DNA from: Polytrichum commune
Taxonomy: Eukaryota; Streptophyta; Polytrichopsida; Polytrichales; Polytrichaceae
DNA length: 64,000 bases
NCBI GenBank assembly: GCA_950295325.1
Contig: OX485803.1
Span: 15,626,001 to 15,690,000 of the forward strand
Direction of reading: 5' to 3'
Position numbers and translations under genes: made by a program. This document shows, piece by piece, positions 30,006-60,900 of this stretch. Within the stretch, counting starts at the first letter, position 1. Each line of letters begins with the position of its first letter. The notes below the pieces were generated by a model. The model was not told the origin of the DNA. It did no database searches and saw nothing but the letters and a program-made list of their open reading frames with translations.

Positions 30006-30007
30006 TA

Positions 30008-36208: not shown

Positions 36209-36630
36209 TATAGTTCCTAGTGGTGAGTGTGAAAATGACCCCAAATAAGTTAGTTGTTACAACACTTAATCGCTTGAGAAATGGAAGGCGGTGGAAAACA
36301 ATTGTTTCTCCAAATATTAGAGAACAACCTCCTCCAAAAAGACTTCTCCTTTTACACACGTTCAAAAACGTTGATTTCGAACATATGTGGCCTCCATAGG
36401 AGGCAATCACAAGCGTGCATTGGAGCCATGTGGTTGGGAGTGTTTCACATTTGACATGACGTGGATCCTTTTTTTTTTTTCTCTTTCCTTTCAGGCATGT
36501 GAGAGGGATAATGTTGCTAATGAATCAAATTTCACAATGAGCATGGATAACATCATATTAAACATTATGGGACTTTTGGGAGTCCCAAAATTACAAAACA
36601 TGTACATTTTGACCAAAATTCTACGTGGGA

Positions 36631-37154: not shown

Positions 37155-40100
37155 TCACCGGGATGCGCGTCCCCCAGATTTACGTCTACCACCTCCATGT
37201 CCACGGCCCCCTCGATGCCCACTAGACTCCCCGTCGTCCCACCCACCCTCCCTGTTCCCACGCTCGGCTGTTGAACACCGTCGAAGATTATCTTTGGCAA
37301 AACCAATTTGCTCTGCTGGGATAGTAACCTTTAATGGCTCCACATCTTCCTGTGCTGGCAGAGGCCAGGCTGCCAAAATGCAATCGATCGGCTGCCAGTC
37401 GGAAACGGAGTATTTCAAATCTCGTTTCCACTTGAAGTTTGGGTTTGAATCCCAACCATTCCATTTCTTTGAAAGGTCCCTCGCGGTTGAAGTGGGAGTG
37501 AACCACTATACAAGTATTTGACGTGGATGATCTCCCGTGACCGCCAAGTTCGGTACAGACACAGCCCGGCATACCCAAATGGGTCTACCTATATCTTGTT
37601 CTTGGGGACGCAATATTAGCATATGCCCCTCGTGCACATTCTCTGCGATGCGAAAAGCTGCTGCAGGACGAAGGTTTGCTGGACCAACATAATGGTCGTC
37701 CGGTTGGTGCTCTTCCCGAAGCTTTCCGTTCTGCAAGAAGGGATGTGCATCTGCTTCGACTCTACTTCGTGGCCAGAATCCCTCGCATAATGGCAGCCCA
37801 ACAGTGTATACGTTTTTGAGGGGTGCATCTAATGCCTCCTTCACCCCTATCCAATATTGCAAAATATGCATGTGTGAACCCATATATGCTCCTGTCGTGT
37901 CATGGTCACATATTGATTGCCAATAGTCAATGAACCCTTGCAATCCCACAAGAACCTCCTCCAGCTTGGCCATACCTCGCAGTGGTGCAGGAAAGGGGTC
38001 CCCGGATGGAATACATGGCTCCCCTTTTATATTTGATTTCCACATCTTCACACCGTCTTTGGGCAACCACTCCCCATGCGTGCTTAGCACTTTGTATTGC
38101 ATAACTGACCAACCATCATCTCGGACATAGAATTTGAACTGTTGAGCCTTGGTGTGCCCAATGAGTTTCTCCTTACCACTTGGGATATGCTCGCTGACGA
38201 ATGTTCTCCAATCTGGAAGTTCCTCTATCATGTGTGGAATGACAGGAACCTTTTTCATGTCCATGTATGATTTTATAAGAAGGGGTATAGTGGGATAGTC
38301 GTGTTCACGCAGGTCCATACTCCACCTTCCAAATGATGCATCGATGTCATCATGGGTGTGGCCAACCAATAGATAAGATACATGTACCTCCGTGAATATT
38401 GCTTTCGCCGTGAGCATAGACCAAAATGCCTTTACAAACCTACACTTGTTGTCCTTCCAACAATTATCAAGCTGAACATGCAGAATGGGTGGAAGAGGAA
38501 TTGCAGGTGTGGGCTCCGTGGGTGGGGGTTGTAATCCTCCCAAACATACATCGCTCCCATTGAGAACAGCACAATACAGAGGTGCACGCCCGGAACCATG
38601 AAAAAGACGTTGGGATGATGATATGGGAGGTTCCTCCAAATCGCGTAAAAGTCTCGCGAATGAACCCACAGTATGGTTGCAATCTCCAGGGTACATGTCC
38701 AGTGCATAGTGGGCATATCTCTCATCTCCATGACCATGGGCCATCATGCCTGTTACAGAAAGTGGTAGCTTTGTAAACATATCGGTGTCTTTGTTCTTGG
38801 AAGCAAAGCAAGGCGATGCGGTTTTGCCATGGTCCATTTTGTCGTGGATAATCGTCAACACCTTTTGGGGATGCTCAATTGAAAGAGCCCTCATGCATCG
38901 GTAAGCGTTGCGAGCCGATTCTTGTTGTGCTAGGTGTTTTTCCAATTGTTTCGAAAACCCTGTGTGTGCGGCTGAACCTTTCACATGTTGAAGTATAATT
39001 GCGGACAACGAATCACACTTCCCACAACGCGCAAAATTATCACCAACCCTCTTCTTTATGTAGTGCTTAAAGTAGGTATTTCGAATTTTGCTCAGAGTTG
39101 AAATAGATATTGGGAGCACTCCGCATTTGTCATTCACCTGCCCATATAGTATTAGTATAACATTAATAATACTTCACATGAACCATGAACCAAAGTATAT
39201 GAAATACGTTCATAATTGCCCCCTCGTGTCTATTCATTATACACAAACCCAACTCGATTGAATGTTTGATCTCCACTGTCAATGCGGGTAATTGGACTAT
39301 ACCAATTGCGTACCTCATTGATTGTAACCAATAACTTCTTCCATTTGGTTCCGCGAGGCAAGACCATTTCTACAACTCGTGTACCATTTGGCAATGTGCG
39401 AGCCTTGTGAGGCATCATATCTGCTTTGTCTTCCAGTAGTGTCGAAAGTGTGGCTGTAGCTTGCTGAGTGGATGTTCGATTCCTTTTCTTATTTAGGTTC
39501 GCATGATCGCGTGGACGCATACCATTCTTGAATTCCGACCGGTTTCTGTAGAACGTCGTTTTCGAGACGGCAAATATGTGTCTCCATGCCTTCTCGCAGA
39601 CATTGCGCCCACTCAAGGTGACGACCTTCGTTGAACTTACAAGTAGTACATGTAATTGGCCATGGACTTCGAGTTGCTTAGCATGTCTCATCCGTGGCGA
39701 ACAAGTGTAGAACTCCGTTCGTAGCGCAAGTGCCTCTTCCCTGGGAAAATATCTAGTGCACTCCCTATCACAACACACGCTAGCAGATAGTTGGTGGATG
39801 CTATTATTATTGAGAATCTGTGATTTCTTTGTCGGTCTGTTCTGCGGCGTCGTGCGTGATGTTACATATGCCCTCTTCCCCTCTTTCTTCCGTCTTTCTA
39901 GCAATGTGTTTTGCACACGCAACCTGCGTGTGCTCACTAGGAGGTGGTGTGCAAGTGTATACCTCTGTTGGAAAACCCGATCAAGAGGCCATATTCGCAA
40001 GGAGAACATCCATCTCATGTCCATCATTCCCTCTAATGGCTCCATAATAAGCACACCAACATTGTCTATTCCTAGATATTTGTCTTCAACACAATCCATC

Positions 40101-40408
40101 GGATTGACGTTGCAGCAAATTCCTTTTGCCACATTTTGTCCACTCACATTTACAAGCATAACAGGAATATGCAGCCATTCCTCCCTTCTCAGCCCGTTGC
40201 AGTCTACATCAATATCCTCTATGCCAGCATCAGTGTCGTCTTCCGTGAACACCGCTTCAGATAGTGAAGATCCCTGCATCGTATTATCATGTAAGTATGT
40301 TTGCCCGTACTCATGTCAGATACCACAATATGAAGTTACATCACATTGCAAAGTGGGGCAGTAACTGACCTCCTCGGAGCTCAAATGCTCTACTTCAGGT
40401 TGCTCCAT
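37155..40408 (-). CDS. Intact DUF7869-like DDE transposase (four exons)
   Basis: Proposed exons on the minus strand are 40408-40370 (tentative), 40273-39314, 39137-37575 and 37505-37155, all joined in phase 0, giving about 970 residues with no stop or frameshift. The 176-bp intron 39313-39138 has GTACGC, a TACTAAT branch motif and a CAG end. The 69-bp intron 37574-37506 has GTATGC and TATAG. The protein has an acidic N-terminus, a CCDREC cysteine motif near residue 180 followed by FPRE, a VSKTTFYR helix-turn-helix-like segment, then IIHDKMDHGK (about 429-438), LDNCWKDNK (about 556-564) and VGHTHDDIDASFGRWS (about 591-606), and a basic Gly/Arg-rich tail. The last three motifs are hallmarks of the DUF7869 family; treating their aspartates as a DDE/RNase H-like triad is inference. 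It probably moves its own element. The broken relative lies at 26088-29484. Confidence 0.85.
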
Positions 40409-41025: not shown

Positions 41026-41386
41026 TTCCTCTCGGCGGAGAGGAACTTGGCGTGGAGATTCCTCTCGGCCGAGAGGAAACTTCTCTCCATGGTCTTTACA
41101 CCCCGCGGGCGCGTGACTAGGACTAGCGGACCATGTCCACTTGCTGATCACATGGAACCATTCTCCACTTCAGTCTTCAAAGTTCTCATTTGGATTTAGG
41201 TTGGAGCGTAGTTTGGTGCCGTAACTCGGATATCGGTTCATCCCGCGTTGCCAGTTCTGATAACAAAAAATGGCCCAATTGGAGCTCTCATTCGGTGCCA
41301 GGGTACAGGGTGTCGGGTTTCCTCTCGGCCGAGAGGAAACTTGGTGCCAGGGTGAAGGGTGAGTTTTCCTCTCGGCCGAGAGGAAA
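41026..41386. repeat. Four palindromes of the TTCCTCTCG family
   Basis: Copies lie at 41026-41045 (arms TTCCTCTC with a 4-base loop), 41059-41078, 41318-41339 and 41365-41386. The last two are perfect 22-bp palindromes, TTTCCTCTCGG|CCGAGAGGAAA, and sit in a 47-bp tandem duplication that also repeats GGTGCCAGGGT. The same palindrome recurs at 46.8-50.0 kb, which ties this segment to the large plus-strand gene. Confidence 0.85.
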
Positions 41387-41389
41387 CTT

Positions 41390-42404
41390 GGTGGCAGTGT
41401 TCATGAGGAAAAAAGGGCTATGTCAGCTGGGCCGTACAACTGTACGGCTGCCATGTGGATGAAGTTGTACGGACAATTGATCGTAGGATCAACGGCAAAA
41501 GAAAACATACACTACTTGGACCGGCACCTGTAAAAGAGAGCATGTGTTGGGTTCTAAATGCGTGTAGTGTCGACAATGAGAGGTATGGAAATGCCTCAAG
41601 AGTGAGAGTCGGAGACGGTTGTGGGTATGGGCCTTATATAGTAGATGGGAGATTGGTGGTTTTGAAATAGACGGGATCCTCTCTTGTACGGAGAATCAGC
41701 AGTTGAGGAGGTGTAGAGAGAATGATTGTTTGGCGAGTAGATGTGCTTTCTAGTTGATAGTACATATAATGTACATTCTACACTACCTTCCATTGAATGC
41801 GACTGATCTCAAAATTTCGAATTTAGTGTACATATATCCTCTCCAATGTGTTCATTGATTGTTGATCGTGGTCTAGTGTGATGAACTCTCAATCCCACTG
41901 TAGTCCAATCTCCTATAAACATGTGCCATTATGGTATTTGTTCTTTCACAATCACCGAACCACGCACCGACCAGTGGGCCATGGTGGCAGCATGCAATAT
42001 TTAGTAAATGTCAAAAAATTTACCCTAAACCCTTAACCAAAAAAACGGCAAGATGAACCATCATTAATATCCATGGGCCCACTATATAATTGCACTCAAA
42101 ACAATGTGCCATTGATATATGAATTTAAGACATTAAAAGGTAGAGTGGAAAAAAAGGCTAACCCCAAACCCTAAACCGTCTTGGAGTGTGAAACTAAACA
42201 TTGTTGTAACTTAATATCATGTCACACTTGTCTGTAGCAAACATGATCCAGTGGGTGACTTGTGGCGAATTCCAAAAATGTGGGGTCAATTGCCATTTCG
42301 TAGATGCTTCCATGTTAAGTTCTCTGTTTGTTAAAATTATGAAAACAATCACTACATTGATTACCCAAATTGGTGAGGGATGGCTAATAGTGTTGTTGGG
42401 AAAG
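41390..42404. other. Non-coding, no gene seen
   Basis: Short frames only. Two telomere-like AAACCCTAAA-type words near 42025 and 42165 are isolated. Confidence 0.4.
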
Positions 42405-42406
42405 TA

Positions 42407-42651
42407 CACTAAATAGGATGTTGAGTGTTTAATACACTAAATGAGAACAAATACACTCAATATCAATAACCATTAGTGTTAGTAAAGATATGGGAAAAAT
42501 TGGGATATAATAAGGGATGTGGTAGTCGGGAAGAAAGCGGTACATTTATGTCCAGCACTAATGGTTAAATAATTGAAAATTAGTTTTGAGCAAGGTAGGG
42601 TGGTGGTAGCAAACCCCAAATATAATCAAACACTAAATATCTTATTTAGTG
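42407..42651. mobile_element. TA-target MITE with CACTAAATA termini
   Basis: The element is 245 bp with inverted termini of about 26 bp. The left end is CACTAAATAGGATGTTGAGT and the right end read inward is CACTAAATAAGATATTTAGT. TA dinucleotides flank it at 42405-42406 and 42652-42653. The same terminal type occurs at 14022-14408. Confidence 0.8.
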
Positions 42652-42653
42652 TA

Positions 42654-44742
42654 GTGAAGGTGATACTAAAGTTCTTTATGCTAGGGATTTAGTGGCAGCA
42701 ACAGAGCTAGGAAGCATTGGTCATCGTGAGTAATATTTATAACATCATTATTCATTTAAAGTATTGGCACTGTTCGTTGACAAGCAATGTGTTTGCATAC
42801 GAAATGTTTAATCACACTACTAGCACCTTGGAGCACGCACTAATTTTCTCAAAATGAGCATGTATTTGTGAATTCAAAGATGTATGTGGAGTTTTAGAAT
42901 GAGTCTTCGTATTATTATAAGATAGCTATGTCCAATTTTGGTTCCTTATCTTAATCAAACACCTAGTATATGTCAGTGATATGTGGTTTGATGTGGCTCC
43001 AAGAATGGATAATAAAAAGGAGCTTTATTTTAAGGTATGAGGAGCCAAAAAGCTCGCGATGGGACTAGAGGTACATGTTGTCAAAAAGGCTAATTGCGTG
43101 GAGTACTAAAGCACAAGGGCGTCTACGAGATAGCGGCTGATATCAACTTTATGATCCACTCGGAAAAAGACTTGAGAGTACTATGATCTAAAATAGGGAC
43201 AACGGTCAAGATCATCATATAGTCTCCAAAAATGATTAAGAAATGGCTATATCATGACTTGGATAAGGTAACCACTTGTTTCATATCCAACGATAAGTGG
43301 GTGCAGAGGTAAAAAATGTCCATATAAGAAATGCTTAACTTAGCTCACTTACTTATTGACTTTATTAGTTTTTTCGGTAGCTATGATCTCATAATTGACA
43401 TGATTAAGTATGCCTCCTTGATGCCTTTGACCTTGAAATGTGAGTGTATCTAATCCAGTATAACACCACAATGAACCCACAATATATGTGTGAAATAGTG
43501 GAAGGGCAAGATTTAAATGAGATGCATGAAAATGGGAAAATGTTTAATGCACAGCCACATTTTAAGAACTAAAAAGAAAAGAGGATGTGGACCCAAGCAA
43601 TGGGAATCATTACTAACCAACTAGATGATGGTCTCCATAACATTATTTAGTTGTTATTGAGTGTTCCGTTATAATAATAGTAGGGCTCGGGGCAATCACA
43701 CCCCCCTTCCATTTCGTTATCGCGTGCGTTTACCGGGTACGCAACTCCCGTATTATGTGGCCCTGATTATAATCACTTACAATGCGTTTTATTCCAATAT
43801 TGAGTGATGCAATTTGTTTTAATGTAGGAACCCCTTGTGGCCCTTCTAACAGAGGATCCAAAAATGTAATTATATGTATGAAACAAATATGTTTTGAAGC
43901 ATATGATTGCATTGAAAACCTGATTATTTGGTTTTTTTGATACATGTACCATAGGTCAAACTACCCAACTTTTTGGAATTTTTGATAAAATTTCAACAAT
44001 GTGAACGACTTATAATTTTCATGGCAGGCAACTAGTCGTGGTTTATAATTCTAATTGGAGGCAACTATTCAGGTGGATTTTTAGAACTATGTGTAGGCAG
44101 TTTTTTTCTCATCTCATTTTATTTAATTTGGTCTTCAAAAAAATGAGGGGTTGATATAAAACTATTCCCAGTAGGCAATGTTGAGAAGGCATAATTTGAA
44201 GCATCACATCCGATTTAATGAATTCTTCAAAACCAAGTGCAGCCTTCATGTAACAGGTGAGGCTATATTTACAACGTTACAACATTACACCATGATTATA
44301 GAGACATGGATGCATTAATGATCAAAGTCGGTTCAACATTTTCCCATTACCATTTTGTAGATGTGATTTTTCCACTCACAACGTGAACTTTGGCCCAAAT
44401 ATTATGAGTTGCATGGCATGGATTTTAAAAGAGACATGTGCCCAACTTGGAGGTCATGTCATCATAATCAAAGTGTTGTAAGGTCAAGGTTTTGTGTGCC
44501 AAAAAAAACTATGTGTTACAACTTAATGTATTTCAAGTACCTTCTCTTGCATATTTATCATATGTTCTTAAAGAAAATCTGTTTTGTGTGTTTATTATAG
44601 TCAAATTTCATGAAACAGTTTGGCACGCATATGGAAGATTTACTCATCACTAGTAATGCTTCTTATTTGAATGAAATACTTATGTTTTATAAAGATAGGT
44701 TGAGATAATTTGAATGAATTGCTCATGTTTTATAAAGGCAAT
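42654..44742. other. Non-coding, no gene seen
   Basis: AT-rich with short frames only. No terminal repeat or exon-like segment is recognised. Confidence 0.4.
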
Positions 44743-45280
44743 AATTTGAAGGGTTGCTTGTATTTCATAGGGAAGGGTAACTCTAAATTTTCCCTTTCAA
44801 AATGAAGGGTTACCTCAAAAACTGCCTTTCATGTATGTATTGAAGTTTTTGTTGAAAGTGCACATTACCATGTTTATCATTTAAGCGACGTTGAAAACTA
44901 TAAAACAAGTAAGACCAAAGAACACACATGGTTAAAAGATAGAACTATTTCATTAATGAAACATGGATGTTTGAGTACAATAAAACGGTAATGACATCTC
45001 AACATATTGATATCAATGATAATGTCGAGGACAACAAGAAAGCAGTAGTATAAAGATGTAAGAAACTCACAATCTAAATCGCGTTTGAAATCTTTTATGA
45101 ATCATTCATGCACCTCTCCCAAATATCTTTAAAATCAAGAGACTCCATAGGAATCTTCGCCATACTCCATTTTGAAGGGTTTAATAAAAATCACCCCTTC
45201 TTTTTTGAAGGGTTGCAAATTTTTTTTGAAGGGAGTGTGAAGTTCTGGACCCCAAGAAAAGGGTAATAGCCATTCAATTT
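44743..45280. mobile_element. Second, longer TTGAAGGG element
   Basis: The left 135 bp and right 120 bp match the element at 2661-2943 closely (about 90%). The inverted ends are AATTTGAAGGG and AATTGAATGG. An internal block of roughly 255-290 bp is absent from the other copy. Either this is the longer parent form or it carries an insertion. It has no coding frame. Confidence 0.72.
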
Positions 45281-45599
45281 TTGTCCCTGCTTTATATCAT
45301 GGTGCTTGCATAATAATTTATCTATCACTTAACAGACGAGGAATTGCCAAAGCGCAAGAAAATAAAATTGTAAGACAAGATCCATGTTCAGGGGTCTCTT
45401 TTGAGGTATGAAGCCCGCCTTTACATAAATATATATAGGTTTGCCTATGTGCCCCCCCCCCCCCGGTCCAAACGTACTCTATCGACACATGTCGATTGGA
45501 GCTCCCCTACACGGGCTATTAGTCGGTATAGAGGGTCATCATGGGTAGGTGAGATGATCTTGGCCGTTTATAATGACGGCTCAATGTAGGCCGTCGATG

Positions 45600-45868
45600 C
45601 GGGCCACTATCCGAGGCCCCCGGGTGGAGTCCCTTCGGAATCATTGCGCCTTTTCATTTGTGGCCGCACCTCCTCCCTCCCCTCCTCCCTCTCTCCCTCA
45701 CTCCAACTCTCTCCTTCTCTTTTCCTCGCATTTCCTCACATTTCCTCGCATTGCCTCACATTTCCTCGCCTCATTGCATTTCCACGCAATCTCCCACTAC
45801 TCCAGGTTTGGGCGCGGAGGTGCATATCCAGCGGCTTTGGAAATCTTCGGCGCGCCTCACAACTTCTG
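45600..45868 (+). promoter_or_regulatory. Candidate non-coding first exon of the large gene
   Basis: A CT-rich tract (about 45665-45790) with CCTCGCATTTCCTCACATTT words resembles a plant 5' leader. It ends at a strong donor, CTTCTG|GTGAGT, at 45868/45869. The next good acceptor before coding sequence is TTTATTTTGCAG at 48371, just upstream of the ATG at 48377. This gives an inferred first intron of about 2.5 kb that contains the palindrome arrays. Confidence 0.4.
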
Positions 45869-46077
45869 GTGAGTATTCCACCACTACACCAGATTTTGCT
45901 TAAAACTTCATGTTTGAATGTTGGTATGGAGCGATTTGATGCACATTCTTTGAGTCATTATCAGTATGTTTGTATGTGCTTTGAATCTGTTGGTCTTGTG
46001 CGATTTCTATGAACATCTGAAAATAACTGGTGCATCTCTCAAGTCAGATTTGTGCTCTCTCCACTTAGAGTATGTGT

Positions 46078-46345
46078 TTGAGTTATCTATCAGGTTTGAA
46101 TGTGTTGAGTTGTTGAAAGTGTTGAGTTGTTGAGTTGTTGGGTTGAATGTGTTGAGTTATCTATCAGGGTTGAATGTGTTGAGTTGTGTTGAGTTGTTGA
46201 ATGTGTTGAGTTATCTATCAGGGTTGAGTTGTTGAGTTGTTGGGTTGAATGTGTTGAGTTATCTATCAGGGTTGAATGTGTTGAGTTGTTGGTTGGGGTG
46301 AAGAAATTTCAGGGTTGAATGTGTTGGGTTGAATGCGTTAGGTTG
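46078..46345 (+). repeat. TGTTGAGTTG minisatellite
   Basis: Degenerate tandem copies of GAATGTGTTGAGTT, with a longer period including ATCTATCAGGGTT. It lies inside the inferred first intron. Confidence 0.9.
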
Positions 46346-46848
46346 CTGAAATATCTTGCTTGAATAAGTAAACATAGTATCTTCAATGTTCTGTTCCTCA
46401 ACTTCCTCAAATAATGGTGGATCTAGCTGAATATCAATGTAGCAATTGTAGTTGTAGTGGCATTCATCAATGTAAACACTAAACCCTAGAAAATAAACTA
46501 AGCAAATGTTCTTCTTTTCAATCTCCAGTGACTATATTGTATTTGCTGTTGCCGAACTAGTTCCAAAGTTTGTCTTTCTTCTGCGTTAATTGTTTGTGTG
46601 ATAATCATGCAGTCTCATTGAAAAATCACATCTTATTGCAAGAAATTGAGCCATTGCAGTCTGATAGAGCCATTGACACAATAGTTATGTTTTGGCATGT
46701 GCATTGATATCAATTGCATGAATTCAAAGTCGGTCTTTAATGCTTGATTCAACTCAATGTTACAAAACTCAAAATAGTGTCACAAAATAGTGTGGATAAC
46801 TTATCCCTCACACAAACCCTCCCTCAAGCACCAAGATGGGAGGGAAAA

Positions 46849-47321
46849 CTTCCTCTCGGGCGAGAGGAAGATTTCCCTGGGGGTTCGCATTTTCAGAGCC
46901 CCCCACCCTCACACTCACTCTTGAGGAGGGTGAAAACTTCCTCTCGCTCGAGAGGAAGTTCTCCCCTGGCCTCTCATTTTCAAGAGGCCCTCCACACCCT
47001 CACTCTCACACTTGAGGAGGGTGAAAACTTCCTCTCGCTCGAGAGGAAGTTCTCCCCTGGCCTCTCATTTTCAAGCGGCCCTCCACACCCTCACTGTCAC
47101 ACTTGAGGAGGGTGAAAACTTCCTCTCGCTCGAGAGGAAGTTCTCCCCTGGCCTCTCATTTTCAAGAGGCCCTCCACACCCTCACTCTCACACTTGAGGA
47201 GGGTGAAAACTTCCTCTCGCTCGAAAGGAAGTTCTCCCCTGGCCTCTCATTTTCAAGAGGCCCTCCATACCCTCACTCTCACACTTGAGAGTGAAAACTT
47301 CCTCTCGCTCGAGAGGAAGTT
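46849..47321. repeat. 91-bp tandem array, each unit carrying two hairpins
   Basis: Palindromes lie at 46849-46870, 46935-46960, 47026-47051, 47117-47142, 47208-47233 and 47296-47321. From the second copy on the spacing is exactly 91 bp, except the last unit, which lost 3 bp. Each unit has arms AACTTCCTCTCG/CGAGAGGAAGTT around CT, plus a second small hairpin, GGCCTCT..AGAGGCC. The unit length is not a multiple of three, so the frames through the array rotate and are not coding. Confidence 0.92.
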
Positions 47322-47340
47322 CTCCCCTGGCCTCTCATTT

Positions 47341-47870
47341 TCAAGAGGCCCTCCACACCCTCACACACTGACGTCTCCCTAGCCTACAATCCTTTTTCAA
47401 ATATTCAAAGATGTCAATTCTTCGAGTCATTTCTCTGTCAATATCGTCATCCTTGCACCAGGCAGAAGCACGTTTCAAATCAAGCTCATTGATGATCACA
47501 TTACAAAGAACTGGATACTTGGAACCAAGATGTGTAATTACCGACAATCTTGAGTATGTGCTGTGATGAATGCTTAATAGAGAAGTTTTTGATAGAGCTT
47601 GCGACTAAAATTACTTTGGTATGCAAACGTCTTCATACACTATTAATCGATTTTGCCGATTTGTGGTTGGAAAATGGCAGGTTCGTTATCTCAGACAGTT
47701 TCGCGAGTTGCGACTCCCTTGCCTTGAATTCAACCCTCTTTGCAAGGTACAAGTTCGACTTCAAGAAAATGATAAAGAAAAAGAGTGTCATTGTTATTTA
47801 CAACTGATATGTGATGTTTGTTCATCAATCCCTACTCATGGGGAGCGTGGGGACTGGTTTAATGTTTAAT
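47341..47870. other. Possible exon relics in the first intron
   Basis: A minus frame at 47341-47547 reads hydrophilic and protein-like (it includes DIDREMTRRIDIFEYLKKDC). A plus frame at 47621-47866 reads RYLRQFRELRLPCLEFNP and later CHCYLQLICDVCSS, with splice-like GCAG|GT and CAAG|GT steps. I cannot identify either. They may be relics of a gene captured with the repeats. Confidence 0.25.
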
Positions 47871-48006
47871 TAGTCTATATTATGTTAGTAAATCAAATAT
47901 GGATGAATGAATGCATGTCTTTTATTTTGTTTTTGGTTTCCATCAATTTAGAATGATGTGGGTTAGGTATTCGATGACAAACCCCTATCAACATGACAGC
48001 AGGAAA

Positions 48007-48247
48007 GGGAAAACTTCCTCTCGAGCGAGAGGAAGTTTTCCCCTGCGCTCACATTTTAAGAGCCCCTCCCAACCCTCACACGCAGACTTGAGGAGAGGGA
48101 AAACTTCCTCTCGACCAAGAGGAAGTTTTTCCTTGCACACTCATCTTATTAGCCCTCTCCTAGCCCTCACTCCCTAGACTTCAATCCACCCCTATCAACA
48201 TACAGCAGGAAAGGGAAAACTTCCTCTCGACCGAGAGGAAGTTCTCC
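48007..48247. repeat. Three palindromes of the TTCCTCTCG family
   Basis: Copies lie at 48007-48042 (17-bp perfect arms, GGGAAAACTTCCTCTCG), about 48098-48133 (right arm has one change) and about 48213-48247. Their central dinucleotides are AG, AC and AC, while the arms stay constant. The flanks share AGCAGGAAAGGG, so they derive from local duplication. All lie within 400 bp upstream of the first coding exon. Confidence 0.88.
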
Positions 48248-48376
48248 CTTGCACACTCATCCGTCACATTATGTAAACCCTATTTATCAACGTACGCGAT
48301 AGCCTCAAGGTGCAAGCTCTCTCAAACTTGCTTTATTCCACAAATACTAACCATTTCAATTTATTTTGCAGGTGAC

Positions 48377-49825
48377 ATGGACAAGGAAGTGCTATGGACA
48401 GACCTTGTTGGGACAATGGAAATAGGGCAGAAGGGTGTCTATTGGGAATTAAAAGACACTCACTTGAGACACTGGTCAATTCAGGTACACAGGAGGGACA
48501 AGGAATCTCCGTTAAAACTAATTCTTGCATATAGGGTAGGAAAAAATTGGATTCCAAACCCAGGAAACGCAATAACCCTGGCATCGGTCGGCGATCGCGA
48601 CCAGCTTAATGTAACGGTGCTCGAAGGACTCGAAAAACGCACTTTGTCCATCGATTGCAAAAGGCATAGATTTCACCTGGAGCCATTCACCCAATCAATC
48701 GAAATGCTTCCTCCTGTGGATAAAGAAGAGATGGAGAGAGTGATGGTCTCCGGTGTATCGAAGAAGGCAATTAACTTCCTTCTTGAAGCAATAGGTGATA
48801 TCAATTCGAGAGAGGCGAACGAAATGGAGGCGAACGAAATGGAGGCTCTGAGGATGCAAAAGAAGAAACAAGCGGAGACACTTCTGAAATCTAGGACTGA
48901 TGATGAGGGGAGTAAGAAGAAGAAACAAAAGAAGCAGAAACCCGATGATCAAGATGTTGAAGGAACAAGAGAGGTGGCAAAGAAGCCCAAGAAGGCTTCT
49001 GGTGAACTCGTTCCCTTGGCGACGCCTACAAACGCGACGCCAATTATGCAGAGCCATCCCCAAAAGACATCAGGTGCAAGGAAACCTCCGGCCTCAAAGA
49101 GGACTACTGATGAGGAGCGGAAGACAAAACCTAAGAAGGCGAAGGCTACGGATGCATCGGAAGAAACTCCACTAGTGCTCACCGCAACAGAGAGGGGCAG
49201 AGTCATCGCACATGGCGAGGAACCAAGCCTAGAGGAAGCTGCAGCAGACCGCAAGAAATTCGTCCAATTATTTGGACACTTATATCCTTTCGGTATCGAG
49301 AAAGTTTTTCATGTCCACATAAAGAAGATGTTGAGCGCAAAGTCTTATCAGGTTACTCGCCCATTGGATGATGCCGGAGTAGCTCTTATGAAGAACTACC
49401 TTATACAGACCCCACCAGCGTGGCCCCATCACAATCTATGTCTCATGCTGAAACTCAATAAGGGTGAAACATGGAGAGAAGGAATGACCTGGGACAATAT
49501 CAAGGACGGCAATTTTGTGATCATCAACGGTCAACACAGCGTGGCTGCTTCGAGGCAGATTATAGGGCACAAGGATACAGATCAAGCACTCAAGGATAAA
49601 TTGAAGATTTGGCCTTGTACGATTGTTTGGACCAATGATCCAAGCATGACAGTTCGTCTCTCCTATACTCTAAACAACTCTAATTCTTTCAACAAGTTCA
49701 CTCCTAGTTGGACAACATAGATTATGTACTGTCGTAGGGTGTGGGTGAAACTAGGGAGGCCCTCTAAACAACGGATCAACGCTGTGGGGACAACTATAGA
49801 CCCCAAAATGAAGGAGACATAGAGA
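48377..49825 (+). pseudogene. Large gene, exon 1: ParB-like domain protein
   Basis: The ATG lies six bases after an acceptor (TTTATTTTGCAG). Residues 1-140 form an unrecognised ordered region (VYWELKDTHLRHWSIQ). A Lys-rich disordered stretch spans about 150-290. From about 310 to 450 the sequence follows the ParB/DGQHR fold, with NGQHSVAASR at residues 384-393 where ParB has its GERR-type loop, then a KIWPCTIV strand and a helix with N-rich residues. Bacterial ParB proteins bind palindromic DNA; transfer of that role is inference. The frame has TAG at 49718-49720 and again at 49820-49822, but stays protein-like across both (MYCRRVWVKLGRPSKQR) up to a GTAAGT donor at 49826. Both would be CAG before one C-to-T change. 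Confidence 0.65.
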
Positions 49826-49894
49826 GTAAGTTTTCATACACCCACTCTCATTCCAACTTTTATTTTTGCACTCCCATATGTAGACTTCTCTCCC

Positions 49895-50000
49895 ATCCCT
49901 CAATCAAGGCTCAAGGGCTTGAGGGAGGTGAGGGAACTTCCTCTCGGCCGAGAAGAAGTTCCCTCACCTCCCTCAAGCCCTTGATCCCTGATTGAGGGAT
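49895..50000. repeat. 106-bp near-perfect palindrome in an intron
   Basis: The left arm is 49895-49947 and the right arm 49948-50000, with no loop. 50 of 53 positions pair. The centre is the family palindrome ACTTCCTCTCGG|CCGAGAAGAAGT. The outer arms contain GGGCTTGAGGGAGGTGAGGG and its complement. It lies inside the 278-bp intron 49826-50103. Confidence 0.95.
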
Positions 50001-50012
50001 AGGAGGATTCAT

Positions 50013-50042
50013 GGAACTTCCTCTCGGCCGAGAGAAAGTTCC
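50013..50042. repeat. Second intronic palindrome of the same family
   Basis: Arms of 15 bp, GGAACTTCCTCTCGG, pair with one mismatch around the centre 50027/50028. It is the last copy of the family seen in the window. Confidence 0.85.
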
Positions 50043-50103
50043 CTCGCCTCTACCCTCCATTCATAGTTACTTCAACTTGTGTTCTAACACTTTTCCATTG
50101 TAG

Positions 50104-51492
50104 AATTTCACGACAAGCATGGAGGCTTCATTTACCGCCATTGCTAGAGGGATCACCCACAATGACCTTAATGCCGAGCTGGCACTCATCATGGCAGATG
50201 ATGAGACCTCGAGGATGTGGAAGAAGGTATTTCAAGGACACGAGAAAGGGACCCATATTAACCCGGACAAACCAGGCTCCACCTATTTAGAAGAATACCT
50301 GGACACGTAACAAAAATAGCGAGCCCACCACAACAAGAAAAAATCGGCAACACCATTCGAGGAGAAGCCGTATGTTTGTAAGCCATTGACCAGGGAAACT
50401 TTCAGGGTGATGGCAGGCCTAACACGGCCCGACTATCTTCTGTGTGCGAGACGTATCCTCGAGGTGAGGCCTGGCGAAGAGGTTCCTAAAGTCTCTCTCC
50501 GTGCCACGAAGAACCACGATGTCATGACCTTGAAGTCGTGGTGTAATTTTAGGAAGTGGAAGAATATTCTTCTGCAAGAGTTGTCAGCACACGACCCAAA
50601 CGATCTTGGCATTTGGGGAAAGGACTCGGAGGACAATGAATGCCTTAATAGATCTATTTGGGACAAATTCAAAAGGGACCATGGCATCACGAAGGCCAAA
50701 TGGGTGAAGCTTTATCAGGTTGCAGGTGATGGTTGGCTAAATAAGAAGCGGTTGCCGAACTACAATAAACTGGACCCTACCCCGGCATGCTTGCGTTTGT
50801 TGCAAGAGTGGCTGCAAACACTGGTAGAAGAGAATCAAAGACAAGTGATCACTCGATATGTAGATTATAATCCTCTGAAGCGGAAGTTGGTGATTCCTAA
50901 TCAGGACAAGGTCGACACTGATTGACTCTCGAAGTTCACCATTATAGGGGGCTTCATCGACTTTAGATTCATCCCGGGGTGTGTCGATCAGCCAGTATCA
51001 TCGTCGGTGGTCGAGTCCTTGGTGAAGTATGTTGCGGACCCGGTCTGGGTCCCGGGCCTAAAAAAAATCCCCGCTTGGATGATTGTGTCCGATTTGCGCA
51101 ACCACCCCGCGGCTGAAGAGTTCATCTCCGCCTTGATTCGCAAGCACCCGGGGACGTTTCTGAACGTTCCGTCAGTTTATCTACCTTGTCACGCTGAGGA
51201 TCAAACCTTCAACAAGGAAGTAGATTGGCTAAGGACTATCCCTCTTTTTTATGTGGACTTCCTCACTTGCCGAAGTATCCTCCCACGCCACAAGCAGTTT
51301 CGATGTCCCATGATAGCGCCTGTAACTCGGCGTTACAATGTGAACCCGAAGGAATGGTCGGAGCTTTCATACGAAGCGAACAGAGGCGAGTTGCGAATGG
51401 AGGTTTACAACTCGTTTCTCAGCAACCTTGGAAGCTCGGGAGGAGTTGTGATAAATCTATTCGGCGGGTTGAAGCCTATTGCTGCCGCATTG
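50104..51492 (+). pseudogene. Large gene, exon 2: helical region and methyltransferase-like domain
   Basis: The exon is bounded by TTCCATTGTAG and a TTG|GTGAGT donor. One frame runs through, interrupted by TAA 50308-50310, TAG 50317-50319 and TGA 50923-50925. The first half is helical and charged. The second half (from about 50940) resembles N4/N6 amino DNA methyltransferases in a permuted order. VADPVW sits where the catalytic (D/N)PP(Y/W) belongs, followed by AAEEFISALIRKHPG, then GGVVINLFGGLKPIAAAL, which fits the S-adenosylmethionine-binding motif I. The catalytic proline pair is altered (PV), so activity is doubtful even without the stops. ParB-like and methylase domains do occur together in bacterial mobile DNA. 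The methyltransferase call is tentative. Confidence 0.5.
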
Positions 51493-51570
51493 GTGAGTAC
51501 ATACAACATCCTAAACCTTGCTTTTATTCGCAGGCTTGTTTATCTATTCTGATATTTTTCATGTATGCAG

Positions 51571-52752
51571 ATGAACGAACAGCATGTGTTCTCGTGCATG
51601 GACTCTAGCTTCATGCACACGCTTCCCGAGAAGATAGATCACGTCCGGCGACTTCGGGCTGTGGACTTTCAAGATGACCATGAAGCTGCAGGTGACAGAG
51701 ATGACCACCCTCAACCTTAGCAAGAAGCACCCCCTGCACTGTTGCTGGAGGATGTTTCGCGAGATCCGTCACCCGGTTTGGACATCGACGCCATGGACGT
51801 TGATAGAGACGAATCCGAGGGCGAGTATGAGGAGCCCGAAGATGACGACGACGACAAAGAGGCGCCTAGTAAACAGGATACAGAGGAGGCCTCCAGTAGA
51901 GGGGAAAGCGCCCATATGGATACGCAATCGGATGAATGCGAATCCATTCACACACAATCGCCACAACCACAGTCCGCTTCACCTATGCGCGGCAGGGTCC
52001 TGGAATTTGAAGAGGACGAGCATGTCACCTCTCTAGCGGAAGGTGACCCGGCCGAAGACCAGTATCGCGACGAGGATCACGAGGGAGATGCCAATGAAGA
52101 GCAAGATGCCGAGTACTCGGACCGTGAGGAGGAGTTTGAGGGAACGCTCCAGAGGGAGCTCGAGGGGGAGCTCGAGGGGGGCCTTGACGACGCACAAGAA
52201 GGGGCTTGCGAGGGAGCACAAGAAGAACGAGAGGTGGCTCAAGGAGAACATGAGCAGGCTCGTGTTCAAGAGGAGGCCGAAGGTGATGTGGCTGAGCTCA
52301 CACCCGAAGTGGCAACCACCTCCCGGCCTTCCACGGCGTCAATTGTGTCTGAGAGCGAAGAAGAAATGCCACCGCCCAGTGCCCCAAAATCCAAGGCCTC
52401 CAAGCGAGGCAAGCACAAGGACCGGCATACGAAAAGACATAGTTCTCGGGTTCCAGAGCCTGTGATAGCGGAGTCTGTATTGGAAGACAAGATTGTGGGG
52501 ATCTTGAGAAGCACACTGCCCAACATGCTGTCGGGCTTGCTCCAAGAAGCGTTGGGCCTGGCAAAAAATACCCCCCCTCAGCAAGTGCCAACACCAACAC
52601 CCATAGTGGATGTTGCAGTCGGTGCAGCCGAGCCCGAAAGGGTGGACGATCAGGTGGGCGCATCGCTCCCAGTTGGCGTGCAAGCAGTGGATGTCTCCTG
52701 CGTGGATGCAGCACCGACAACCATCGACACCTCCGACAAGGCCGAGGTCAGT
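51571..52752 (+). pseudogene. Large gene, exon 3: end of methyltransferase-like domain, acidic disordered region
   Basis: Acceptor TTTCATGTATGCAG, donor AGT|GTAAGT. The first 35 codons (QHVFSCMDSSFM) complete the motif I region of exon 2. TAG at 51718-51720 again sits where Gln fits (HPQP-stop-QEAPP). Beyond it the frame is open for more than 340 codons. It is extremely acidic with Glu-Gly repeats (EGELEGGLDDAQEGACEGAQ), then a basic Lys/Arg/His patch (KSKASKRGKHKDRHTKRHSS) that may be a nuclear signal, then a short amphipathic helix (LRSTLPNMLSGLLQEALGLA). No folded domain is recognised after residue 40. Confidence 0.6.
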
Positions 52753-53049
52753 GTAAGTATTCGATCCCCGTGAACATTTCAGTATGCAAGTTTTTCTGTT
52801 CAAGTGACTGAATCTCCACCTGGATGTTTGATCCAGGTCGGTGATGGCGCGGCATCTTGAAGCTAAAAGTGGACTAGGACGAGTAGAATAAATAGAGTTA
52901 GGGGTGTTGATTACCCGGAACTCCTCCCTTGTGGGGAGGAGATGCAATATGTTCGACCATTTATTATAAATAAAGTGGATTCCTTTGTCTAGCACATGTA
53001 CTTTCTAGTTTGCATTCAATTGTCCTTAATGATGTCTTGCAATTCACAG
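52753..53049 (+). other. Intron with an alternative terminal exon
   Basis: An acceptor-like TTTGATCCAG precedes a short phase-0 frame ending in TGA at about 52858. AATAAA-type polyadenylation signals follow at about 52888 and 52968. The gene could therefore end here in some transcripts. The acceptor AATTCACAG at 53049 allows the frame to continue instead. Confidence 0.4.
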
Positions 53050-53715
53050 GCTTGTCTGCACAACCCAGAACGAGTGGATGCATCACACACTGCAAATTTG
53101 TCTATTCAAACGTCACTAACCCCAATCGACGACGAGCACATCAACCCCTTGCCTATTGTGGTTCCCATACACACTTCGGATGCAGCGGTGGTCACCCGCG
53201 CTCCACCCACGGCCCCGTCACCGCCAGAACATCTGCAAGCTCAGGTTCCATCGCCGCGTATGGCACTCTCGCCGACTGGCATCAAACAAGTGGCAAATTC
53301 TACAATTAGTGACATCATTCAAGAAGTTATCCAAGTGCCACATTCTGCGCAGCCTCCACTTGAGCCCTCACCTTTGGAGGTTGTCGAGCTATCGCCGCAA
53401 GGTGTGGATGATGATGTTGCCAACGAAGAGGCTTCAACTCCACCCGTGGAGTGCCCTCAAACAAAGCCACAGTCACATGCGACGGCATCGACGAGTGCTG
53501 TCAATGTTATCCCATTGGACTCGTCGAATCCAGAAGCCACCATAAATGCTCCACAAGCAGTTAGGAGGTATTTGACACGTTGGCCACAAGGCGAGAAGGC
53601 TCCCCATCCAGTATTCAACAACGTTAGTTGCCAAGATTTCCGGACGACGCACAACAACCAAGACGATCAGAGACGGCGTGCCGACCTTCTAAAAGTGGTG
53701 CCTTCACATGTCAAA
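53050..53715 (+). CDS. Large gene, exon 4: Pro/Ser-rich disordered region
   Basis: The exon is 222 codons in phase 0, between AATTCACAG and AAA|GTAAGT, with no internal stop. The sequence is low-complexity (Pro, Ser, Thr, Glu) with one predicted helix (STISDIIQEVIQV), and ends in a basic segment, DQRRRADLLKVVPSHVK. There is no ATG near its start, which argues that it continues an upstream reading frame. Function unknown; probably a flexible linker to the HAD-type domain. Confidence 0.55.
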
Positions 53716-53831
53716 GTAAGTTTATTCCATCCAATGCATTCGTTAAAAGGCACGTTAGTTTCGATTGACATATGTCTATTTCGACCTTTTCACCTCCCCA
53801 TTTATTTAAATTCGCGTAGTTTTGGGTTCAG

Positions 53832-54143
53832 GCTCCACAGCATTCGATAGCGCCTTTGGATGCGCCTCTACCAAAAGACGTCGTCTATGATAAGCTATTT
53901 GTTTACGATGACACATACCCAAGGATCAATAGACCTTGCCAAGTTTTCACAAGGGAGATGGGAATCGCGTGTGCTAAAAGACTAATGTCTAAGTATCCCG
54001 AAGATCCTTCCCTAGGGTACTCTGAGCGATGGGAATTCAATCCAATACAGTACGAGGTATTGATCGTGGCCCATTTCTCCCTGTCGTTCGAGTTCGCCCA
54101 TACCACACGTGGTTTGGAGGACTACACAATGAACTACTTAATG
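53832..54143 (+). CDS. Large gene, exon 5
   Basis: The exon is 104 codons in phase 0 (acceptor TTGGGTTCAG, donor ATG|GTATAG), without stops. The translation looks like a folded domain (DVVYDKLFVYDDTYPRINRP, then REMGIACAKRLMSKYPEDP and FEFAHTTRGLEDYTMNYL). I do not recognise the family. It sits directly before the phosphatase-like exon and may be its N-terminal extension. Confidence 0.55.
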
Positions 54144-54209: not shown

Positions 54210-55022
54210 AAGCTCACAGTGGGTTCATGTCGGCAAGCGCCTGCTGCTACACCCAGTCGAAGGTTCATTGTGGTGTTCGATTTAAACGGCATATTTTGCC
54301 ACTGTTCCCGACGTAACCCGGGTATGGTGACTGTGCCCACTTGGATAACTTACGATAAAGCACCGGACAAACCTCCGGCCTTGGTAGGGCCCAAGGTTGT
54401 CCTACCTAGACTGGGATACAAGATGTTTTGGTTGCGGATGTCCTCCATGTTTCATGTTTGCATATGGTCATCCATGAAAAAATCCACTGTAGACCTTGTG
54501 GTGGAGTATCTATTTGCCGGGGGCCCAAAACCCGCATTAGTACTTGGCCAAGAGGATTGCACCTTGTTCAAGGACATGTGGAACAATGTCGTCATGAACC
54601 CTTTGAAGCCAGAAGCTCCTTTGTTTTTGAAAAGTTTACTCAACAAGTTTTGGTGGCCGCCTATATCCTTCGATTCTGGAAGGATCACAGCTGCACCCTC
54701 CAACACCATTCTAGTAGACGATTGCCCTTACAAATCTGTTTGCAATCCGGACGAGTGTGGTATCTTTCCCAACCCATTCACATCCAATCGGATGCAAGAC
54801 GCAGACATGACAAAGGTCCTCCTTCCTTACTTTCAATCATTGTTCTACTCACCAATGTCCGACGCACGCGAATTTGTGGTCAGCCGTAGGTTTGGGCAAC
54901 AACCTGTACGGCATAACGATGCAGTCAAGGTGGCAATTTTGAAATCCAACGGGCTTGAAGAAACCGACTCGGAAATTGTAGAAAAGTTGCAAATCGATCG
55001 AATAGAAGTAGCAAAGAAATAA
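54210..55022 (+). CDS. Large gene, exon 6: FCP1/NIF-type HAD phosphatase-like domain
   Basis: Acceptor ATGTCAG at 54209, then 270 codons ending in TAA at 55020-55022, directly before GTAGGA. The HAD core is clear. Motif I is FIVVFDLNGIFCHC with the nucleophile Asp at 54279. Motif II is in the VCIWSSMKKSTVDLVVEYLF region. A conserved Lys lies in PLFLKSLLNKFW. Motif III is TILVDDCPYKSVCNP. Length and order match the NLI-interacting-factor/FCP1 domain that dephosphorylates nuclear proteins. The second motif I acid is Asn (DxN, not DxD), which usually weakens or abolishes catalysis. The terminal TAA fits the pattern of Gln-to-stop changes, because the next exon is open in the same phase. Confidence 0.72.
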   Translation, partial: KLTVGSCRQAPAATPSRRFIVVFDLNGIFCHCSRRNPGMVTVPTWITYDKAPDKPPALVGPKVVLPRLGYKMFWLRMSSMFHVCIWSSMKKSTVDLVVEYLFAGGPKPALVLGQEDCTLFKDMWNNVVMNPLKPEAPLFLKSLLNKFWWPPISFDSGRITAAPSNTILVDDCPYKSVCNPDECGIFPNPFTSNRMQDADMTKVLLPYFQSLFYSPMSDAREFVVSRRFGQQPVRHNDAVKVAILKSNGLEETDSEIVEKLQIDRIEVAKK

Positions 55023-57920: not shown

Positions 57921-60900
57921 TTTAAGTTATGGCATGTTACAGGCATTTATAGCACAATATTCAATCGAGTGGACGCCTCCTAGCATAGAATTGGTGTTTC
58001 AATGAAGAGGATTGTGGGTGCAAACCTCCTGTTGTGTGACAGTCTATGCAAAAGCCCATTGGAAGCAAAGAGTATTTGTCTCGCATGGGCAGGTCCATCC
58101 AAAGTGTCCACGAGTTCCCAATGAGTTCCCAATGAGTTCCCCATGAGTTCCCCACATACATCCCAGAAATCCCAAAATCATCCTAAAGTCCCATAATGTT
58201 TAATATCGCGTTGGATAGTATCATTGTGCATTCTACATAAATTAAGGTAGTGTAACATGGGTTATTGAGTAGTCAAATTTTTTTTTGTGTACTATTGTAT
58301 TAACTTCTGTACATGCACAACTACCACATGCAATATCTATTGGTAGAGCATAAGAATCTCACTGCCAATTCAAGGATTCATGCAATGTCCAGAATTGTGT
58401 GCATTAGGTGTGCAATACACAATCTCTTAATCTTATCAACCTTTAAGATATGTGGCCCTATTGTGGCCCGTGGGCATGTCCAACTAGTATATTAATGTTG
58501 GTTGGATTGGGAATTGCTTCATCTGGTTAATAGCAACTATTGTGAATCATGAAGATTGTCATTTCAAGATTCAAAATTGGAGTTGAGACACAACTTTTTT
58601 TTTGAGGTCAAAAATGAAGTTTGAAATTCTTCCTCTTTGACCTTAATAATGTTGAGTGCATTTTGAGCACATAGTCCAGACTCCAATCTCATTATAACAT
58701 GCATGTCTATTTGACATCAGTCTTCAAACTACAAGCCTTGTCATATACCACTGGAATGTAGGTGTAAGATAACAAATTCATGTGTGTCAAAAATAGTAAA
58801 GTAACTATGTAAAATAAGGATAAAGTGTTATGGAGAGAGCATTTACTAACATGATTGGAAGGAGGTTTGATTAGGATAGAGAACACTATGTATTTTTGGA
58901 TAAGAATAAATCGCCTTCTTTGTTTTGGTGCTTCTTAATTATACTTTAACTATCGTAGAGGGAGATCTAGATGAGGTGGGATGTGACATGGTAAATCGAC
59001 AAGATTGGTATGACTACGCTTCCTCCAAAGTAGTGTTGGAGGGAGATGTCATGGCAATTGTGAAGATGCCCTAAGAAGGTAAGGGTTAAAAGGATGCAGT
59101 GGTAATGTGTTGGGGCACCCTAGTCTAAGACTCAAGTATAAATGAACACTATTAGCTCTGCACCCACTTCTCGTAGGATGCGAAACACGCAATTAGTATG
59201 ACTCCATGATCATCAATTGCCAGTTCCAAATCATGTCCGCAACTATTATGTTCCTTAGACCTTATATTAGTCGCGATATACAATGAAGATTCTTGAGCTC
59301 ATGGAGTAGTCATTAAGATCCCCCAATATTATGTCGACTATTGAGTCTAGAATAGTTAACACATTTTAAACATGTGTCCAATCTCCATAAAACGCATGTC
59401 TTTTTATTGTCCATTCTTAGATCCACACCTACCCAGACACTACTGTTAAGGAAAGTAACCGTCGAGAAAGGCCCGCCTACCTTACGAAGGTCAGGGTTAG
59501 GGTTGCAGCTGTGGTAACGTTGTCATGTGTGCGTTTGATTGAAGAAACGGCGGTTTGGAGCACTAAGTTACAATTTGTTGATGAGGAGGAATAAGTGGCT
59601 CAGTCACACTTGCTAGTTAATGGAGGATGAAGGAGGAGGTTTGCAGACAGAATTAGAAGCTGTGAGGGTTATGATTCGGGTGAGCTTCTAGACCGATCGA
59701 GGATATTGGTGTGCAGGCTGGAATCGGAGCCGATCGATCGGAATGAATTATGAGCACAAAAGGCTTGCGGACATCAATGCGATTCCAGCCACTAGGAGGC
59801 AAGATGACGGTACACGCATGTGGACGACCAGTGCCAAGACTGATCCAACCAATATTATCACGTTGCTTTGATCTGCTGCTGCCTGCTTTAGATTCCGGGA
59901 ATTATTAATGGAGCAAGCAGAAGGTGGCCTCTTTGAGTGTCTTCATTCATCGTGGTACTAGCCTCTAGGGGATGTCAGGTGCTCTTTAGGGGATGTTGCA
60001 GGATCATATACATTGTGTGTAAGTGTGCATTTGCAGCAGCAACAGTGGTTTGACCCACCGCTGCCCATTTTTGGGATTTTTTTTATGCCTACCGGCCGTG
60101 TCGATCGAAGGACATTCAACGCTACTCGTCTTCTCTTCTCTTCTACTTCTACTTCTACGGAATCCACCAGTCTGCTTCTTCCGTTCCTCTTTATGGATAC
60201 ACCCCATTCATGAGTACTGTTCTGGCGCAATATTGCAAAAAGTAGTTGTGGCAGTGTGGTGATGAATGCAGAAGCAGGCAGGAGCTTAACCGCAAGTGTG
60301 CAGTGCGAGACCGTTTAGTTAGTCATGGGGCAGAAAAATCTTTTATATCTAAAAGCATTAACCAAAGCTTAGACAAACAGAAACCCTAATACATACAGAA
60401 GTTGGTCGAAGGGTTAGTCACTTTATGTGCTTGGTTTATGTCGCATTTGGAACTGGTTTACGTAGTGAAACGGTGGTGGACGTAGATGCAGAGCCTTAAT
60501 GCAGGTTCGCCGTGGATCTAATTGCGAGTTCTCGAAGCATTTGGAACCTAGGAAATTAGTATGGGAAATTCCTCTAGCTCTACCTAAACACCAGTCAAAG
60601 GCCCAGGAACCCAGCAATTTCCCACTTTCAGGCTCCATTGAGATAGAGACAAGACAAGACAAGACAAGACAAGACAATGGGGTGCAATACCTCAATACAT
60701 ACCAGGGGAGCAGAGTTTTCATCAAAGTCTGAGGCAAATACAGGTTTAATAGTCAACTCCATAGCAGAAATTGTATGCTTCAGTAACCTCCTATTTGAGG
60801 GTAGTCCACCAACTACATAATTTCTGATGGAGGAAATTTTGCTGGAGGCTGAGATGTTGCAGCAGCACCTAGTTCTAAATATTGGATGACAAGCCTATTC

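Follow-up and report, generated by a model that had tools for sequence, protein, structure and literature searches.

A stretch of 64,000 nucleotides from the moss Polytrichum commune (contig OX485803.1, positions 15,626,001 to 15,690,000; hereafter the window) holds a short palindrome that recurs around a gene with a ParB-like motif, and the question raised by this locus is why one palindrome should be kept, on both of its arms, at so many places. An earlier note had described about fifteen constant-arm palindromes with a varying centre, had attributed them to selection or copying of the palindrome itself, and had compared them with bacterial parS sites. We found that the palindromes belong to a single copy of a DNA transposon of 21.66 kb. 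Among its relatives, a change in one arm is nearly always mirrored in the other, and the arm types track the gene tree. Judged from the sequence, there is about an even chance that they are branch-specific operator sites of a dimeric regulator encoded by the elements of this giant DNA transposon lineage.

The left arm, TTCCTCTCG, occurs exactly at 15 places in the window, spanning 41026-50037 (starts at 41026, 41059, 41319, 41366, 46850, 46938, 47029, 47120, 47211, 47299, 48015, 48105, 48221, 49938 and 50018), and is followed each time, after a gap of two bases, by the matching right arm CGAGAGGAA, giving 9+2+9 = 20 letters. Ten of the 15 copies are perfect and five (41026, 47211, 48105, 49938 and 50018) have one mismatch, in the right arm every time; the centre is GC, GG, CT, AG or AC. 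The number, places and varying central dinucleotide given in the earlier note were thus confirmed. Beyond 41026-50037 no further TTCCTCTCG palindrome was found in the window at up to 3 mismatches in 18. Arm matches with no more than one mismatch number 44 in the window, against a mean of 8.4 and a largest value of 19 in shuffled sequence, and perfect 9+2+9 palindromes number 11 (ten of this family and an unrelated one at 28867), against a mean of 0.45 and a maximum of 2 in 40 runs of a Markov-1 control. A chance origin was rejected on the shuffled, Markov-1 and reversed-pattern controls.

The sites form four clusters. Cluster 1 (41026-41385; sites 41026, 41059, 41319 and 41366) lies 5' of a gene with a DUF7869 domain, and about 5.5 kb free of palindromes separates it from cluster 2 (46844-47364; six sites), 5' of the ParB-like gene. 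Cluster 3 (48015-48240; sites 48015, 48105 and 48221) is directly 5' of the ParB-like exon, and the two sites of cluster 4 (49938-50037) lie within a putative intron of the same gene (49826-50103). The clustering around the ParB-like gene described earlier is refined by these positions: clusters 2 and 3 are upstream of that gene, cluster 1 is instead upstream of the divergent DUF7869 gene, and cluster 4 is in the putative intron. Since the six sites at 46850-47299 are all units of one 91-bp tandem array, they are not independent. A simple satellite does not explain the whole pattern, since tandem organisation is seen in cluster 2 and some other arrays but not in the rest. Tandem repeats of the TTGAGTTG type (periods 27, 48 and 102) are also present at 46072-46345, about 0.5 kb 5' of the 91-bp array.

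The limits of the transposon were determined by comparison with two loci chosen for their 96-97% identical copies of the ParB-like open reading frame (ORF), C3:52.817-52.839 Mb and C1:76.769-76.791 Mb (contigs are numbered C1, C3 and so on). Blocks common to the three copies are 88-98% identical and break off within a few bases of the same points, delimiting an element of 21,664 bp at 36549-58212. Its ends are 28-bp terminal inverted repeats, AACATCATATTAAACATTATGGGACTTT at 36549-36576 on the plus strand and AACGCGATATTAAACATTATGGGACTTT, in minus-strand reading, at 58185-58212, flanked by the target duplication GGAT at 36545-36548 and 58213-58216. In all three copies with both ends read the 4-bp target duplication is specific to the copy (GGAT, AAAG and TACT). 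These common block limits, inverted ends and copy-specific duplications, found in dispersed copies, identify a DNA transposon with terminal inverted repeats. It has many relatives in the 407.8-Mb genome (64 contigs).

At least 96 rows matched the ParB-like ORF (94 of 949 candidates were scored, and some rows are pieces of one copy), grouping near 95%, 77%, 66-70%, 59% and 30% identity, and 26 further loci, numbered within L001-L034, were fetched and their palindromes read in part. The 9+2+9 format and the placement are kept in the relatives, and the arms change, to TTCCACTCG, TTTCACTCG, TTACGAACG, TTTGGGTCG, CCACGGGTG and GGTGAGGCA. TTCCTCTCG was present in all three 95% copies read and in 7 of the 11 fetched 77% copies; TTCCACTCG in the 77% copies L027, L028, L029 and L031 (in L031 downstream only) and in the 66-70% copies L013, L014, L015 and L021; TTTCACTCG in three copies of the 59% branch, whose right end resembles that of the window element; and TTACGAACG in three 30% copies. 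In the branches read the palindromes take the same positions, 5' of the DUF7869 gene (where fetched), 5' of the first ParB-like exon, and between the two exons of that gene; none were seen in some short fetched flanks (e.g. upstream of L030, L031 and L033).

Further branches carry palindromes with other arms. The TTTGGGTCG palindromes in L020 are taken to be part of a nested element: the adjoining locus L035 holds a DUF7869-like ORF, recognised by eye, and a distinct ParB-like gene with the motif LIDGQHSVEAS, and a NIF domain also adjoins these palindromes in L020 (E 5.7e-14). At L020:8124-9774 they overlap open frames beside the ParB-like gene and read as repeated short peptides. The proposal that DUF7869 elements without a ParB-like gene lack palindromes proved wrong, as L036, drawn from the DUF7869 matches, carries CCACGGGTG palindromes, detected without requiring a CG-NN-CG core. 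Tracing them leftward led to a gene with the motif VVNGQHTLAAC, its domain 25% identical to that of the window, with CCACGGGTG palindromes both 5' of the gene and between its exons. Two further DUF7869 loci, L039 and L040, were taken as a blind test of palindrome presence. Both contain 59-bp arrays of a new unit near GGTGAGGCA-NN-TGCCTCACC, mostly with arm mismatches, and six perfect GGTGAGGCA sites lie just past L039 (C3:1640674-1641308). L040 has a candidate ParB-like tail, weakly matching L035 (BLAST E 0.002 within a seven-sequence set). The outcome for the GGTGAGGCA clade was partly as expected, the palindrome being new and mostly imperfect.

The abundance of the palindromes and their linkage to the gene family were determined across the genome. 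Exact sites number 284 for TTCCTCTCG, 236 for TTTCACTCG, 101 for TTCCACTCG, 2909 for TTTACGAACG (10-base arms), 9731 for TTTGGGTCG, 819 for CCACGGGTG and 155 for GGTGAGGCA, a total of 14,235 for the seven versions, and the reversed-pattern control gave 0 sites for each. The TTTGGGTCG palindrome, the only version sought in other sequence collections, was absent from the viral contigs and had a single match in 257 Gb of prokaryote genomes, where by our own arithmetic about 4 are expected by chance. The analysis of linkage covered 50 of the 284 TTCCTCTCG sites, all on contig C1 and forming 8 clusters. Six of the eight lie within 12 kb of one of 16 ORF positions on C1, seven within 20 kb and all eight within 35 kb, compared with means of 0.05, 0.08 and 0.13 (maxima 2, 2 and 4) under random placement. 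Among the TTCCTCTCG sites listed, then, every cluster has a relative of the gene nearby, and the even spread without a gene link that the earlier note had named as contrary to its idea was not observed. Both listed TTTCACTCG clusters on C1 hold a 59% copy. Three of the listed TTTACGAACG clusters hold an ORF from a list of 92 of 1088 candidates, the other two lying 35-39 kb and 1.6 Mb from one.

The two arms of a site nearly always change together. Fetched sequence of the window clade contains 140 sites, array units among them not being independent; half-site position 5 is T in both arms at 50 sites, A in both at 87 and mixed at 3 (agreement 137/140), and position 3 is C in both at 90, T in both at 46 and mixed at 4 (136/140). 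Identity to the window is 66-78% in the exons of L020, L008 and L013, whereas nearly all of the non-coding flanks fail to align; the exceptions are matches centred on palindromes in L020 and two pieces that lie away from the palindromes of the window, one of 60 bp in L020 and one of 290 bp (86%) in L008. L027 likewise has many short matches with the window centred on palindromes. A tree of 24 exon sequences unites the copies that have TTCCTCTCG upstream in a single clade (10 rows, support 100/99) and those with TTTCACTCG in another (3 rows, 100/100). With labels limited to the palindromes seen and near forms assigned to the nearest type, the upstream type needs 2 changes on this tree (20 rows; 300 shuffles, mean 8.8, minimum 6) and the downstream type 4 (23 rows; mean 9.7, minimum 7), the extra downstream changes being due to the intron sites of L014/L034, which are of the TTCCTCTCG type, and of L013, which are half TTCCACTCG and half TTCCTCTCG. 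For nine proteins and six half-sites, the identity of the domain falls as the half-sites differ more (rho -0.87); the pairs share sequences and are not independent, so that the p-value is unusable. Motif and element gene thus diverge together, with the mixed copies L013, L014 and L034 as exceptions. The earlier proposal that selection or copying acts on the palindrome itself is supported, as is a link between the palindrome and the gene family.

The symmetry could in principle come from mutation instead of binding, with hairpins and template switching transferring one arm to the other and tandem duplication spreading the result. Perfect palindromes do extend well past the 20-bp core on which they are centred, to 94 bp at L007:4013-4106 and 108 bp at L013:6101-6208, which suggests inverted duplication or template switching at the core, and the array 5' of the ParB-like gene has 4 units at L008:3460-3715 and 15 at L011:2903-3971 in copies otherwise more than 98% identical, a recent expansion or contraction. 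We nevertheless regard mutation as an unlikely source of the symmetry, as the 9+2+9 core recurs in five unrelated arm groups (four perfect, that of GGTGAGGCA mostly imperfect) and its placement is the same across branches at about 25% protein identity.

A pair of half-sites with matched arms and a varying centre, present at multiple sites upstream of genes and in an intron, is what the operators of a dimeric regulator would look like, and we infer that a protein binds the palindromes and that the element encodes it. A symmetric dimer of this protein would recognise the two 9-bp half-sites, the 2-bp centre mattering less. Since the arms differ between branches within one host and follow the genes of the element, a protein of the element is likelier than one of the host. 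Sites for a host protein, for host silencing or for RNA hairpins would not need such branch-specific arms if a single host protein were concerned. Intron palindromes could form RNA hairpins, and the non-coding DNA of transposable elements is a known target of silencing (PMC10398659); the window has no Rfam family match, however, and we consider this class of explanations very unlikely.

Which protein of the element would bind is a separate matter. The ParB-like protein is favoured because palindromes lie around and inside its gene in every branch for which gene and palindromes were both read, and we give it somewhat less than an even chance. Its first coding exon (48377-49825, plus strand) encodes the GQHS motif and is preceded directly by a putative 3' splice site, TTTTGCAG, with a putative 5' site, GTAAGT, at 49826. 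The second coding exon (50104-51552, plus strand; MEASF...) is broken in the window and more open in L002, and a stop at 49718-49720 interrupts exon 1, as in L005, whereas L008, L013, L014 and L020 read through; the window copy is worn. The intron at 49826-50103 is proposed from the splice-like sequence and from relatives whose frame is open to that point. Residues invariant in eight ParB-like sequences include G, Q, H and A in the motif and an N further along. This pattern resembles that of ParB and of DGQHR proteins.

The name ParB-like rests on the short GQH[S/T] motif, and searches gave no support for homology to ParB. Pfam scans of the gene and of its domain gave no ParB match, a PDB sequence search of the protein did not support ParB, and a genome search with PF02195 (ParB_N) found four places, on C10, C12 and C23, none of them in element genes; these contigs are possibly bacterial contamination of the assembly. 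The DndB/DGQHR proteins (TIGR03187) share the DGQHS motif, which lies in the conserved part of some element proteins, and the NCBIfam profile matched one fragment, in L018, far below threshold (E 0.093, 12.5 bits against a cut-off of 58.85). A methyltransferase-like exon 2, entertained for the resemblance of an NLFGGLKP stretch, was dropped, as Pfam and PDB gave nothing. No relatives of the ParB-like protein were found in the viral contigs searched. The clustered palindromes beside a gene with a conserved GQH[S/T] and downstream N do resemble bacterial ParB-parS, and they might be sites by which the protein partitions or pairs an extrachromosomal form of the element. Unlike parS, they belong to a transposon, have many site sequences in this one genome and extend over 9 kb, 5' of two genes and in an intron, and the ParB N-terminal domain was not recognised in the gene by profile. 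The comparison drawn in the earlier note consequently found no support, and a parS-like function seems highly improbable.

The other candidate binder is the product of the DUF7869 gene (37506-40279, minus strand; ORFs 39230-40279 and 37506-39137), which is probably the transposase. Pfam PF25273 (DUF7869) matches 37506-39137 (E 6e-41), a single 692-amino-acid ORF in L036 spans both pieces (judged by eye), and the Pfam scan of the seven main ORFs, which matched DUF7869 and NIF, gave no MULE transposase. The palindromes might then be accessory sites of this transposase for transposition. A DUF7869 gene or DUF7869-like ORF stands beside the palindromes in the window, in the 59% branch and with TTTGGGTCG (by eye), CCACGGGTG and GGTGAGGCA, and the rough candidates for DUF7869 in the genome (1492, of which 150 were scored) outnumber those of the two other gene searches (949 and 1088). 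On the other hand, the palindromes are 4.5 kb and 8.2 kb from the nearest ends, away from the terminal repeats, and cluster 5' of genes and in an intron, so that we find a role in transposition rather unlikely.

If the sites are instead operators of a regulator, their position 5' of the probable transposase gene and 5' of and inside the ParB-like gene would allow the protein to control its own family in trans. Such control would most likely be activation or shielding from host silencing, as with VANC for VANDAL, an effect proposed tentatively and by analogy. The main branches have their own half-sites, and site and protein change together, which would keep the branches from cross-activating. 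The composite picture, a giant transposon lineage with a private code in which a diversifying protein with a ParB/DGQHR motif recognises branch-specific 9+2+9 palindromes, present in this genome in at least seven versions, and switches on or protects only its own branch, is one we would put clearly below an even chance.

Several results weigh against the operator reading or against the choice of protein. The comparison of substitution rates suggested in the earlier note showed arms no slower than their flanks among close copies, with differences at 8/234 arm and 51/1435 flank positions (five stretches, two copies); such copies may be decaying freely, and arm constraint is visible only between clades. 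Flanks are not always lost: a 72% match over 2.1 kb in L027 takes in the intron as well. L013 has three half-and-half sites, L014 and L034 have two types, and L032 has ATCCACTCG forms. At up to 2 mismatches, perfect GGTGAGGCA sites make up 0/37 in L039 and 2/28 in L040. In the fetched loci the centre varies in TTCCTCTCG, TTACGAACG and TTTGGGTCG sites and is AC or AT in TTCCACTCG, whereas it is near-constant in other branches (AT in 46/46 TTTCACTCG sites, AA/TT in 14/15 CCACGGGTG sites), so that only certain branches can be said to have a free centre. Searches identified no DNA-binding domain; AlphaFold models of both ParB-like exons are poor (mean predicted local distance difference test scores 40 and 52), and a Foldseek search with the poor second model gave zero matches at E 0.001 or better. 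Finally, the genes of the element all diverge together, so that the agreement with the tree does not set the ParB-like protein apart from the others.

A close parallel is the VANC system of the VANDAL MULE elements of Arabidopsis. VANC motifs are described in introns and upstream regions, in tandem repeats and evolving together (PMC5735166), and an element protein with family-specific targets is shown (PMC5735166, PMC10398659). The moss elements share family-specific short motifs in the non-coding parts of the element, with tandem arrays diverging between families, the introns here being putative and the protein-target pairing a proposal from sequence. VANC motifs are 8-9 bp in a single orientation, and 'palindrom' occurs 0 times in PMC5735166; here the motifs are 20-bp palindromes and the genes encode DUF7869, NIF and the GQHS domain.

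The TNPA sites of En/Spm (CACTA) elements are repeated and short, some inverted, and bound by an element protein, and unlike the internal palindromes described here they are subterminal. We take the Sola superfamily to be a candidate for the moss element, the 4-bp target duplication presumably fitting it. Literature searches yielded no paper on DUF7869, nothing related by title and start of abstract on a eukaryotic ParB with a DNA transposon and palindromes, nothing combining ParB, methyltransferase and transposable elements, and, among the matches listed, none relevant by title on giant moss transposons with palindromes; no description of this lineage was found in the literature searched.

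The remainder of the element 3' of the ParB-like gene consists of an acidic low-complexity coding stretch (51742-53850, plus strand; ORFs 51742-52773 and 52996-53850), of which similar stretches occur 3' of exon 2 in L011, and a NIF/FCP1-like phosphatase domain (54219-55022, plus strand; Pfam PF03031, E 8.9e-10). Elsewhere in the window, an older second DUF7869 remnant lies at 27299-27970 (Pfam E 3.7e-29), near which only decayed TTACGAACG-like sites are found (29961-30403, 3 mismatches each), as expected if upkeep ends with the death of the element. A different recurring palindrome, CATGAGCTA-NNNN-TAGCTCATG, occurs in loci of different branches (L018:905-928, L019:6-31 and L039:3303-3326), and plant-type telomere-like repeats (TAAACCC) at L007:6049-6089, inside an element of the 59% branch.

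Within one genome the elements offer candidate pairs of protein and site that form a natural series graded by divergence, which makes it directly testable how a DNA-binding protein shifts its specificity in step with its numerous dispersed sites. The DUF7869 elements, abundant in this genome, gain a defined anatomy. If the proposed regulation is true, they would be a second, independently built case of transposons that regulate themselves through private motifs.

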